A DNA stretch of 64,000 nt from Pectinatus haikarae. GTDB taxonomy: Bacteria > Bacillota > Negativicutes > Selenomonadales > Selenomonadaceae. Numbering within the stretch: position 1 is the stretch's first letter; each line of letters opens with the position of its first letter. The position numbers and the translations under genes were made by a program. The DNA lies in NCBI RefSeq assembly GCF_015732185.1, contig NZ_WIQM01000004.1, positions 248,001 through 312,000 of the forward strand. The letters are read 5' to 3'. The notes under the pieces were generated by a model. It made no database searches, had not been told where the DNA came from, and worked only from the letters and a program-made list of their open reading frames with translations. This document shows, in pieces, positions 5,642 through 10,177 of the stretch.

Positions 5642-8600
5642 ATGGGTAAATATCGTATTGTTCCGCAATCGGGTGATAAATTTCGCCGGCTTATTGATTC
5701 ACTGCCGCTTGACAGTGAATTTATGATGCTTTTGAAGGCCAGCACAATAAAGCATGTAGAAATAGATCTGAGAAAGAATACATGGGAGATACTGCTCCAT
5801 ACGTATCAATATCTGCCGGAAGACATGCTCGGTCAGGCTGCCGATTATATAGCGTCAAATTGCGGAGTCAGTGATGTTGCGTTTTATCAGGACATTATTG
5901 ATTTTGCCGCGCAGATAGATAAAAACTGGCAGAAAATAATAACTGCCGCTTCTGATGGCAATCCTACCGTAAAAATTTTGCTGCGCACCGCCAAATATTA
6001 TATTGACGGAAATCTGTTGACATTGGAGCTGGCAGGTGAGCTGGCAGGTGAGATTCTGCAGGCTCACAGTGTAAGTAAGGCATTGAAGGAAACGATACAC
6101 GAACTGCTTGAGCTTGAATGCAGAGTTGCTTTTAATACTGTGGATAATGCCGAAGAGCTTTCCGGTGAATGCGGCGATTATGTTATGGTAGATTATACTC
6201 CGCCGCCGGTAACGGAAAGACCGGCGGAAAAATACGTACCGGCTGTAAAAAATTATGGCACGGGTTCATCCCACGCAGGCGGTTACAGCAGAAAACAAGC
6301 GGGACCGCCGCCGAACAGCACAGATCCCGGCTGGATATACGGCAAGCGTATAACAGGGCAGCCTATGGAAATAGACGGCATAGACGGCGAAATGAAGCTG
6401 GCTGTCATGCTGGGGAAAATTAACAATATTAATAACCGTGAATTTAAAACCGGCAATAATCTGCTTACTTTCGAACTATCCGATAAGACCAACGGTATCG
6501 ACTGCAAGATCTTTTTTAAGGATAAGGACGAATTTGAACAGGTTAAGGGAAATCTGTCAAACGGATCGGTTATAAAAGTGGCGGGGAGTATTCGTTTTGA
6601 CAGTTTCAACAATGATTTTGTAATGATGCCTGTCAGCATTTATAAAAGCGAAATGAAGAAAAGGGCCGATAACGCACAGGAAAAGAGAGTAGAACTGCAT
6701 GCCCATACACATATGAGCAATATGGATGCCGTCGTTTCCGCGAAAGATTTGATCTGTACGGCAGCGGGATGGGGCTGGCCTGCCATTGCCATTACTGACC
6801 ATGGTGTCGTGCAAGCTTTTCCGGAAGCGGCAAAAACAGTTGCTGATAAAAAATTGGATATAAAAATAATATATGGGCTGGAAGGCTACCTTATTTATGA
6901 TGAGCAGCAGAAAAGGGCTAATCACATTATCCTGCTTGCCAGGAACGCTATCGGTCTGCGTAATATATACAGGCTTGTATCTCTCTCTCATTTGAAGTAT
7001 CTGCAAAAAAGGCCGCGAATTCCCAAAAAAATACTGGCAGAATACCGCGAGGGCATCATTATAGGTTCAGCCTGCGAAGCCGGTGAATTAGTAAGGGCTA
7101 TTGTCGCCGGACAGAGTGACGAGGAGTTGCTGCAAATAGCTTCTTTTTACGACTATCTGGAAATACAACCGATCGGCAACAATGAATTTTTAATACGCAG
7201 TGAAAATTTTCCTGATATAAAAACGGATGACGATTTGCGAAAAATAAATCTGAAGGTGGCTGAGCTGGCAAAAAAGCTGGATAAGATGCTTATTGCCACA
7301 TGTGATGTCCATTTTCTTAACCCGCAGGACAGCATTTACAGGGCTATCCTTATGACAGGGAAAGGCTTTAAAGATGCAGACCAGCAGCCGCCGCTGTATC
7401 TGCGTACAACGGAAGAGATGCTGGGTGAGTTCACATATTTGGGAGAAGATCTGGCATACAAAGCGGTGGTGGAAAATCCCCGTAAAATAGCCGAAATGAT
7501 CGATGTGATAAAGCCCATACCGGATGATCTGTATTCACCGATGATACCGGGAGCGGACGAGCAGATACATGATATGAGCTATGCAAAAGCGAAGCTGCTT
7601 TATGGCGAGAATTTGCCGCAGATAGTGTCGGAACGTCTCGAAATGGAACTGAGATCGATAATCGGACACGGCTTTGCCGTGCTGTATCTGATAGCGCACA
7701 AGCTCGTTAAAAAATCACTTGACGATGGATATCTTGTAGGTTCGAGAGGGTCTGTAGGATCTTCTTTTGTAGCGACGATGACTGATATTACTGAGGTCAA
7801 TCCTCTGCCGCCGCATTGGCGCTGTCCGAAATGCTGCAATAGCGAATTTATAACTGACGGCTCTTATGGCTGCGGATTCGATCTGCCCAATAAGACATGC
7901 CAGTATTGCGGCACAGAAATGATAAAAGACGGGCACGATATACCGTTTGCGGTATTCATGGGATTTGACGGCGATAAAGTTCCTGATATAGATTTGAATT
8001 TTTCGGGAGATTATCAGCCGGTCGCTCATAAATATACAGAAGAATTGTTTGGTAAAGATAATGTTTTTCGTGCCGGTACTATAGCAACAGTGGCTGATAA
8101 AACTGCTTACGGGTATGTCCGCGGGTATTTTAACGATAAGGGTTTGAAAAAACGCGATGCGTATATAAACAGTCTTGTCGCCGGCTGCACGGGAGTAAAA
8201 AGGACGACGGGACAGCATCCGGGCGGTATTATGGTTATCCCGAGAAATATGGATGTCCACCATTTCACGCCCATACAACATCCTGCTGATGATAAGGATA
8301 CTGCCACTATTACGACTCATTTTGACTACCATTCCATCAGCAGTCGTCTCGTAAAGCTGGATATTCTGGGGCATGATGATCCGACTGTCATAAAAATGCT
8401 TGAAAATATAACACACCGTGATCCAAAAACCATTCCCTTTGATGATCCGGCCACCATGAGCCTTTTTTCATCCACGGAAGCTTTGGGAGTGACACAGGAA
8501 GAACTTGGCGCCACTTCGGGGACTTTTGGCATACCTGAATTTCGGACTCCTTTTACGCGGCAGATGATAGATGATACGAGACCGGAAAAGTTCAGTGATC

Positions 8601-9412
8601 TTGTGCGAATAAGCGGTTTCTCCCATGGTACGGATGTTTGGCTCAATAATGCACAGGATCTTATAAAAAATGGTGTGTGTTCTCTGTCAGACGCTATTTC
8701 TGCCCGCGACGATATAATGATGTATTTGATCCATAAAGGGATAGAACCACTTCTGGCTTTTAAAACTATGGAGAACGTCCGCAAAGGGCGCGGGATCAAA
8801 GATGATGTGGTAGCAGAACTTAAGGCAGGCGGCATTCCCGATTGGTTTATAGATTCCTGTCAGAAAATAAAATATCTTTTCCCGCGGGCCCATGCTACAG
8901 CTTATGTTATGATGGCTTATCGGATTGCTTTTTGCAAAGTGCATTATCCGTTGGCTTTTTATGCAGCATATTTTTCCATACGTGCCGATGAATTTGATGC
9001 TCATCTTATAGCACAGGGACAGCAGGCCGTTAAAAACCGTCTGAGTGAATTGGCCGAGGAAGAAAAGATAAAAAAACTTTCGGTAAAGGAAAAGGGATTG
9101 CAGGTAGTGTTGGAACTTGCCTGGGAAATGTATCTGCGAGGCTATACCGTGGAAAAAGCGGATTTGTATGAATCAATGGCAGATAAATTCATTATGCATG
9201 AGAAATCGCTGCTGCCGCCTCTTTCTGCATTGCCGGGAGTGGGGATAACTGCGGCAAATAATATTGTGGAAGCCCGTAAACAGGGAGAATTTTCTTCTGT
9301 TGATGATTTGAAAAAAAGAGCAGGTGTACCGACACCGTCTATTGAGATACTGCGCGAGCACGGATGCTTGGACGGTATGAATGAAACGGATCAGATCGCT
9401 CTGTTTGTGTAG
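5642..9412 (+). CDS. polC: DNA polymerase III alpha subunit, PolC type, without the exonuclease domain
   Basis: A 1256-residue PolC, the replicative polymerase of Firmicutes. Order seen: an N-terminal PolC domain (about 1-180), a Pro/Gly-rich linker, an OB fold (about 250-335), a PHP domain starting at residue 350 (VELHAHTHMSNMDAVV, AIAITDHGVVQAFPEA), and a four-cysteine zinc motif near 728-762 (CPKC ... CQYC). The palm has catalytic aspartates in KVPDIDLNFSGDY (about D782, D784), then HPGGIMVIPR, and a C-terminal helix-hairpin-helix (LPGVGITAANNI). In typical PolC a DEDDh exonuclease of about 180 residues interrupts the PHP domain. Here IIYGLEGYLIYDE runs within a few residues into NHIILLARN and no exonuclease motif is present. 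The length equals a normal PolC of about 1440 minus that insert. Confidence 0.95.
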   Translation: MGKYRIVPQSGDKFRRLIDSLPLDSEFMMLLKASTIKHVEIDLRKNTWEILLHTYQYLPEDMLGQAADYIASNCGVSDVAFYQDIIDFAAQIDKNWQKIITAASDGNPTVKILLRTAKYYIDGNLLTLELAGELAGEILQAHSVSKALKETIHELLELECRVAFNTVDNAEELSGECGDYVMVDYTPPPVTERPAEKYVPAVKNYGTGSSHAGGYSRKQAGPPPNSTDPGWIYGKRITGQPMEIDGIDGEMKLAVMLGKINNINNREFKTGNNLLTFELSDKTNGIDCKIFFKDKDEFEQVKGNLSNGSVIKVAGSIRFDSFNNDFVMMPVSIYKSEMKKRADNAQEKRVELHAHTHMSNMDAVVSAKDLICTAAGWGWPAIAITDHGVVQAFPEAAKTVADKKLDIKIIYGLEGYLIYDEQQKRANHIILLARNAIGLRNIYRLVSLSHLKYLQKRPRIPKKILAEYREGIIIGSACEAGELVRAIVAGQSDEELLQIASFYDYLEIQPIGNNEFLIRSENFPDIKTDDDLRKINLKVAELAKKLDKMLIATCDVHFLNPQDSIYRAILMTGKGFKDADQQPPLYLRTTEEMLGEFTYLGEDLAYKAVVENPRKIAEMIDVIKPIPDDLYSPMIPGADEQIHDMSYAKAKLLYGENLPQIVSERLEMELRSIIGHGFAVLYLIAHKLVKKSLDDGYLVGSRGSVGSSFVATMTDITEVNPLPPHWRCPKCCNSEFITDGSYGCGFDLPNKTCQYCGTEMIKDGHDIPFAVFMGFDGDKVPDIDLNFSGDYQPVAHKYTEELFGKDNVFRAGTIATVADKTAYGYVRGYFNDKGLKKRDAYINSLVAGCTGVKRTTGQHPGGIMVIPRNMDVHHFTPIQHPADDKDTATITTHFDYHSISSRLVKLDILGHDDPTVIKMLENITHRDPKTIPFDDPATMSLFSSTEALGVTQEELGATSGTFGIPEFRTPFTRQMIDDTRPEKFSDLVRISGFSHGTDVWLNNAQDLIKNGVCSLSDAISARDDIMMYLIHKGIEPLLAFKTMENVRKGRGIKDDVVAELKAGGIPDWFIDSCQKIKYLFPRAHATAYVMMAYRIAFCKVHYPLAFYAAYFSIRADEFDAHLIAQGQQAVKNRLSELAEEEKIKKLSVKEKGLQVVLELAWEMYLRGYTVEKADLYESMADKFIMHEKSLLPPLSALPGVGITAANNIVEARKQGEFSSVDDLKKRAGVPTPSIEILREHGCLDGMNETDQIALFV

Positions 9413-9841: not shown

Positions 9842-10177
9842 ATGGAAAATAAATTTTGTGTCGCAGTAAGCTATTTTACACTTGGGGATTACAATGATGT
9901 CGGCTATGTTGAATACAGTGCAGAAAATAAAGCTGCTGAAGTGATTTTAAAATCAGAACAGGCTGTGGCAGCTGTTAAAGAATTTTTCTCGAAAAGCCTT
10001 ACTCTTCAGGTGCCGCATAAAACAATGCATGATTTTACATCTATTACCATAAAGCCATTGGAGAATCTGGAGAATTTTAAGCTTGCGCTGACCAGGCTAT
10101 GGGAAAATACCAATGTGTATGTTGATTGGAGTCGTCCCGTAGAATATGTTCTGAAAACACTGCATGAAGGTAAATGA
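9842..10177 (+). CDS. Small conserved-looking protein of unknown function
   Basis: A 111-residue soluble protein with no motif that I recognise. It has no signal peptide or membrane segment. The composition is that of a real alpha/beta protein: predicted strands FCVAVSYFTL, VGYVEYS and FTSITIKPL alternate with helices (KAAEVILKSEQAVAAVKEFFSK, NFKLALTRLW). The start ATG at 9842 has AGAAAGAGG about 12 bases upstream. It is a single gene between the small RNA and a strong terminator, so neighbours give no clue. Confidence 0.7.
   Translation: MENKFCVAVSYFTLGDYNDVGYVEYSAENKAAEVILKSEQAVAAVKEFFSKSLTLQVPHKTMHDFTSITIKPLENLENFKLALTRLWENTNVYVDWSRPVEYVLKTLHEGK

Follow-up and report, generated by a model that had tools for sequence, protein, structure and literature searches.

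PolC without the DEDDh exonuclease insert in Pectinatus haikarae and across the Firmicutes: distribution and candidate proofreaders

The polC locus of Pectinatus haikarae

The window analysed here is a 64,000 nt stretch of the genome of the beer-spoilage bacterium Pectinatus haikarae (Selenomonadaceae, Negativicutes), which is assembled as 3.11 Mb on 17 contigs. Positions 5642-9412 of its forward strand encode a 1256 aa PolC-type DNA polymerase III alpha subunit lacking the DEDDh exonuclease insert (hereafter Exo). The gene is preceded by cobU, cobS and a histidine phosphatase gene, and downstream of it lies a 111 aa open reading frame (9842-10177, forward strand) with no Pfam match at E <= 1e-5. 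No match to proS, rimP or nusA was found within the 64 kb window.

The N-terminal region of the protein (5678-6157; residues 13-72 and 94-172) scores 15.6 bits against PF14480, below the cut-off of 22, and 26.3 bits against PF11490, at the cut-off of 26.3. It is followed by an OB fold (6413-6607; residues 258-322; PF01336), situated N-terminal to the PHP domain as in PolC, and then by the PHP domain itself (6692-7147; residues 351-502; PF02811, 112.2 bits), which is contiguous both in the Pfam match and in a structure model. The polymerase core (7565-8110; residues 642-823; PF07733) contains the catalytic motif PDIDLNFS and is succeeded by a finger domain (8381-8791; residues 914-1050; PF17657) and a helix-hairpin-helix region (9140-9385; residues 1167-1248; PF14579), completing the domain order typical of PolC. 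The translation closes with QIALF (9392-9406), the C-terminus presumably being where the clamp motif of PolC is placed. This sequence fits the QxxLF sliding-clamp motif, named as clamp-binding in PMC12926913.

The protein scores well above the cut-offs of two full-length PolC profiles, TIGR01405 (1393.5 bits against 1043.45) and NF001688 (1524.6 bits against 873), with the stretch best matching the PolC-specific models starting only past the Exo region. Its closest relatives among named genomes, with identities computed from the OB fold to the protein end, are the PolCs of P. cerevisiiphilus (95.4%), P. brassicae (91.4%) and P. frisingensis (91.1%). The window gene is the orthologous PolC of Pectinatus, without a DEDDh exonuclease.

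Absence of the exonuclease insert

An earlier note on this DNA, made from the sequence alone, had claimed that this PolC lacks its DEDDh exonuclease through a clean excision that spared the polymerase motifs. Both points hold: the PHP domain is unbroken across residues 351-502, Pfam detects no RNase_T domain at E <= 1, and the polymerase core is intact. The PHP metal ligands E414 and H428 are separated by a junction of only 13 residues (6884-6922), at the position where 17 Exo-bearing PolCs have 210-217 residues that include the DEDDh exonuclease; the exonuclease motifs DxET, HNxxFD and HRAxxD are all present in each of the 16 Exo-bearing sequences examined for them. The statement that no DxE-type exonuclease motif is seen anywhere needs slight correction, as there are three D-x-E triplets (residues 24, 248 and 493), although none falls in a region that Pfam recognises as an exonuclease. 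A hidden exonuclease elsewhere in the protein is rejected, Pfam listing none at E <= 1. The longest linker found in any Exo-less PolC, 84 residues in L093, is of low complexity, and no DxET-type motif was found in it.

A sequencing or assembly deletion of some 540-600 bases can be dismissed as the cause, no support for it having been found, because the junction is in frame and shared by relatives: it is identical in P. cerevisiiphilus, P. frisingensis and P. brassicae (L248, L249 and L254), recurs in four congeneric genomes (L005, L006, L008 and L011, perhaps partly the same strains), and Exo is absent from every Negativicutes PolC sequence considered below.

Structure prediction, suggested in the earlier note as a check, agrees with an excised insert. 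An AlphaFold model of residues 241-1256, for which 43 aligned Exo-less PolCs served as input, has a mean pLDDT of 89.3 and a pTM of 0.76, and links the neighbouring PHP strands 408-418 and 427-433 by a short loop. The top structural matches to the model are crystals of Geobacillus kaustophilus PolC (3f2b: TM 0.94, rmsd 2.3; in another comparison the crystals gave Z 49.9-50.2 over 988-989 aligned residues at rmsd 2.2, with 3f2b at Z 49.9 over 989), followed by Enterococcus faecium PolC (9QPC) and then by DnaE structures, including that of Mycobacterium tuberculosis (7PU7). In the E. faecium enzyme, the exonuclease follows the third strand of PHP and precedes the fourth, and Exo was taken out of G. 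kaustophilus PolC for crystallisation (PMC12592400). The delta-Exo forms of the G. kaustophilus and Staphylococcus aureus enzymes have likewise lost Exo from within PHP, but are laboratory constructs that also lack the N-terminal domain (PMC3656037). Pectinatus PolC is the natural counterpart of the crystallographers' engineered deletion. It is the same polymerase as the Bacilli-type PolC, with 50-54% identity to 9QPC and 3F2B, differing in that the Bacilli-type enzyme carries the DEDDh domain.

Distribution of Exo-less PolC

The earlier note was uncertain whether such a PolC had been described for this group; it had been, in 2014, by Timinskas et al. (PMC3919608), who reported the same insert missing from the same taxa. 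In that account, 6% of PolC sequences in the genomes then available, and 16% of those in systems with both PolC and DnaE1, lacked the Exo insertion, all from Clostridia and Negativicutes except for one extra copy in Thermotogae. These forms were nevertheless classed there as PolC, the DEDDh insert being a hallmark of the typical form and not a requirement.

A class-wide profile search found a PolC match at E <= 1e-200 in 159 of 160 Negativicutes genomes and, among the matches listed, each starts at profile position 367 or later, past Exo. When one PolC sequence was read from each of 118 Negativicutes genomes, a non-random set picked by best score and by hand for spread, Exo was absent from all 118. 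A phylum sample of 71 evenly drawn genomes included 52 with PolC at the same threshold: three Negativicutes, 17 Exo-bearing, 31 Exo-less and one (G312) with a partial gene at a contig end, the sequence of which was not read. Beyond Negativicutes, Exo-less PolC thus accounts for 31 of 48 sequences and 24 of 38 families, the remaining 14 families being Exo-bearing; in each of the ten families with two sampled PolC genomes, the Exo state is uniform. Rows L009, L043 and L044 (the window's own gene) and L113 and L114 (the same genes as L082 and L065) were left out of the counts. Set against the 6% of 2014, the 24 of 38 families and the complete absence in Negativicutes indicate that this architecture, although already known, is common across the phylum.

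Some Negativicutes genomes show further variation. PolC open reading frames of genus g11, in the same family as Pectinatus (L167-L175), are short at 1039-1182 aa, the missing part being upstream of PHP and the PHP motif intact. A second near-full-length PolC match occurs in the Selenomonadaceae genomes G010, G063 and G072, with one of the G072 copies containing an in-frame TAG. Another Selenomonadaceae genome, G022 (L237; 99% complete), has no PolC match at E <= 1e-200, and its sole DNA_pol3_alpha match is inside a 739 aa open reading frame.

Gene content around polC was compared with the usual order, proS-polC-rimP-nusA. Outside Negativicutes, rimP or nusA is near polC at 24 of the 29 Exo-less loci with at least 900 nt of downstream sequence, as at 11 of 17 Exo-bearing loci, and most of these Exo-less genes are therefore ordinary polC; the idea that they are paralogues located elsewhere is, for most of them, unsupported by locus gene content. 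The equivalent figure for Negativicutes is 37 of 92, the other 55 loci, like that of Pectinatus, being uninformative with regard to paralogy.

Repeated change of Exo state

Phylogenies of the PolC core were built without the Exo columns. The full tree also excluded the short sequence L032, and both the reduced tree, which included 16 of the Negativicutes sequences, and the comparison of Exo with core additionally excluded L068, which is near-identical to L067. At least eight changes of Exo state are needed on the FastTree core tree of 105 sequences, and at least seven on an IQ-TREE core tree of 63 sequences (fast search). If only losses are allowed, no fewer than nine are needed on the IQ-TREE tree, counted across the rootings that were evaluated, and 12 on the midpoint-rooted FastTree tree. 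A tree in which every Exo-less sequence is confined to one side is 240 log-likelihood units worse and is rejected (AU p = 7e-9), and hence neither a single ancient loss nor a single gain is tenable under vertical descent. Exo presence has arisen or vanished many times, not in one event.

Across the 16 sequences compared, Exo-tree and core-tree distances are correlated (Mantel r = 0.66, p = 0.0001). The Exo alignment also rejects the core topology (AU p = 0.012), such that some regain through recombination is possible, alongside repeated loss.

The PHP metal site

The motif HHDHEH[C/H]DH, comprising nine ligands, has been described as the signature of an active PHP domain (PMC12926913). In Pectinatus PolC, alignment identifies all nine as intact, reading HHDHEHCDH: H353, H355, D362, H387, E414, H428, C478, D555 and H557, spanning 6698-7312. 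The site is complete in 144 of 149 Exo-less PolCs; seven of the ligands are invariant in all 149, and D362 and D555 vary in five sequences only. It is also intact in 15 of 17 Exo-bearing PolCs, and conservation alone consequently cannot show that PHP compensates for the loss of Exo: it is required by the idea that PHP proofreads, yet is no proof of it. The eighth ligand is an asparagine in the Exo-bearing genomes G292 and G333 and in both Bacilli PolC sequences in the PDB, which have ATGNVH in place of ATCDVH; G. kaustophilus PolC thereby differs from the D555 of Pectinatus.

The PHP domain is the proven proofreading exonuclease of M. tuberculosis DnaE1, where either D23N or D226N abolishes the activity, and two ligand mutants of that enzyme are also less stable (PMC5636811). 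Counted along the alignment to the 7PU7 chain, these residues correspond to D362 and D555 of Pectinatus PolC. The mycobacterial enzyme has the same nine ligands and likewise proofreads without a DEDDh domain; it is, however, DnaE-type, with 23% identity over 766 aligned residues, and its activity is demonstrated, whereas that of Pectinatus PolC is predicted from sequence.

PHP sites also vary among DnaE proteins. A second, shorter DnaE of 1029-1069 aa (L233-L236; genomes G283, G325, G328 and G295) has HHDHEHCNH, with asparagine as the eighth ligand. The DnaE of G336 (L224) has most ligands replaced (PHQHLHLQH), in a genome whose PolC retains both Exo and the PHP site.

Two exceptional lineages

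In genus g67, represented by five genomes (G203, G242, G246, G258 and G266), the Exo-less PolC has the motif HHNHEHCNH throughout (sequences L053, L147-L150, L246, L247 and L250; records 'Veillonella sp.' VA137, 3310 and 3891). Both substitutions are aspartate to asparagine, at positions matching those of D23N and D226N in M. tuberculosis DnaE1. As two ligands are lost in all five genomes, PolC can evidently do without a complete PHP site. The PHP site of DnaE1 is intact in all five, and G266 additionally encodes a shorter DnaE-like protein in which the N-terminal ligands are altered. Where the PHP domain of PolC is inactive, it has been described as complemented by the DnaQ domain of the same protein or by a stand-alone DnaQ (PMC12926913). 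Each g67 genome has three RNase_T matches, the same number as the sister-genus genomes G190 and G230, and thus no extra exonuclease is seen; g67 fits the complementation rule only if a generic DnaQ-like protein serves.

In family f57, both genomes examined (G299 and G338; L110 and L111) encode an Exo-less PolC with an intact PHP site, and no DnaE was found in either draft at E <= 1e-100 (TIGR00594) or 0.01 (PF07733). These genomes are 97% and 93% complete, on 70 and 200 contigs, and drafts can miss genes; a match of DnaE strength is present in both genomes examined (79% and 81% complete) of f85, the other family of the order. The f57 genomes have one and three RNase_T matches. Every species is stated to have a DnaE (PMC12926913); in f57, nonetheless, no C-family polymerase other than the Exo-less PolC seems to be present.

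Among the best matches in the open-access PubMed Central literature, nothing concerned a proofreading-null PolC, PolC-only genomes or Pectinatus PolC, and no report was found there of the breadth of the Exo-less form, of Exo-less genomes lacking RNase_T matches, of a double-null genus or of a DnaE-less family. The phrase 'lacking dnaE' in PMC3274465 refers to dnaE2.

Stand-alone DnaQ-like exonucleases

The earlier note suggested searching the complete genome for a stand-alone DnaQ-like exonuclease, and one was found. The Pectinatus genome (G000) has three RNase_T matches. The first is in an 854 aa UvrD/PcrA-like helicase, the second in a 188 aa DnaQ-family protein and the third in a 225 aa protein with a KapD match below threshold. 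The 188 aa protein (L002; G000:C6:7034-7492) scores 75 bits against TIGR00573, above the cut-off of 71.5, making it a DnaQ-family exonuclease and therefore a possible proofreader in trans in Pectinatus itself. Its gene lies approximately 250 kb from polC. Relatives were found in the two other Negativicutes of the phylum sample (48% and 44% identity, the second with a stop in frame), and also in the Exo-bearing genomes G292 (45%), G336 (42%) and G283 (39%).

The helicase has its DEDDh exonuclease embedded at residues ~487-657 (L001 886-3450, reverse strand; G000:C13:76256-76726), and some RNase_T matches in other Negativicutes fall within open reading frames of 858-893 aa.

Across the 42 Exo-less genomes, comprising 41 with a PolC sequence read and G312 with its partial gene, an RNase_T match at E <= 0.01 is present in 31 and absent from 11. 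The latter are 92-100% complete, and the search control was positive in 11 of 14 named genomes. A DnaQ-like exonuclease does not, by this measure, occur wherever PolC lacks Exo, and a separate enzyme consequently fails as a general answer. In all 11 genomes without a match, the PHP sites of both PolC and the main DnaE are intact.

Discussion

The earlier note proposed that proofreading must either be supplied by a separate enzyme or be missing, which overlooked a third option, the PHP domain of PolC itself with its nine intact ligands. With somewhat more confidence than doubt, we regard the PHP site of PolC, together with that of DnaE1, as the likeliest proofreader of Exo-less PolC. Lying between two strands of PHP, Exo is a module that can be removed, and deleting it would bring back an ordinary PHP domain and leave the polymerase undisturbed. 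Error removal would then fall back on the older C-family proofreader: PolC would use its own zinc-type PHP nuclease, and DnaE1, its partner, would contribute a PHP site too. We infer both a catalytic activity of the PHP domain in PolC and a role for it in proofreading. Consistent with this are the intact ligands, the f57 PolC found without a DnaE, the fold match to 3f2b and the precedent of M. tuberculosis DnaE1; the engineered delta-Exo PolC of S. aureus, for its part, polymerises rapidly (PMC3656037). Against it stand the loss of ligands in g67, the 188 aa DnaQ of Pectinatus and the RNase_T matches of most Exo-less genomes, and the ligands may serve structure.

An alternative, which we judge unlikely though worth taking seriously, is that PolC needs no proofreading of its own: DnaE1, whose PHP site is intact, would be the main or proofreading replicase, and DnaE1 or mismatch repair would remove the errors of PolC in trans. 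In favour of this are the intact DnaE1 site of Pectinatus (L135), of g67 and of the 11 Exo-less genomes lacking RNase_T matches, as well as the suggestion of Timinskas et al. that DnaE1 may be the main replicase (PMC3919608). Yet the retention of the PHP ligands by nearly all Exo-less PolCs is unexpected if PolC needs no proofreading, and no DnaE was found in either f57 genome. It is more improbable still that PolC relies for proofreading on a stand-alone DnaQ-like exonuclease acting in trans, be it the 188 aa protein or a different one. The three RNase_T matches of Pectinatus, the score of the 188 aa protein and its relatives in two other Negativicutes point in this direction, but they are countered by the distance of its gene from polC, by the presence of close relatives in Exo-bearing genomes and by the 11 Exo-less genomes without any RNase_T match. 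The last of these, combined with the near-universal integrity of the PHP site, makes PHP a likelier proofreader than a separate enzyme.

Extending the proposal of proofreading by PHP, we suggest more tentatively that Firmicutes with PolC have repeatedly gone back from the magnesium-dependent DEDDh exonuclease to the ancestral zinc-dependent PHP exonuclease. The g67 PolC, a natural equivalent of the inactivating D23N and D226N changes combined, might be without any proofreader, and in the small, separate family f57 the sole C-family polymerase might be a PolC that lacks Exo but keeps its PHP site, contrary to the statement that all bacteria possess a DnaE.

Ibezapolstat, an antibiotic that has reached late-stage development, targets PolC (PMC12592400), and the respective roles of PolC and DnaE1 were given as unknown by Timinskas et al. 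(PMC3919608). With neither site in g67 and no DnaE found in f57, these two lineages make the question of which polymerase proofreads directly testable. The built-in exonuclease of PolC, treated as a hallmark of the enzyme, is dispensable, its presence having changed many times, and in the Exo-less lineages nature itself offers a test of how PolC and DnaE1 divide responsibility for replication fidelity.
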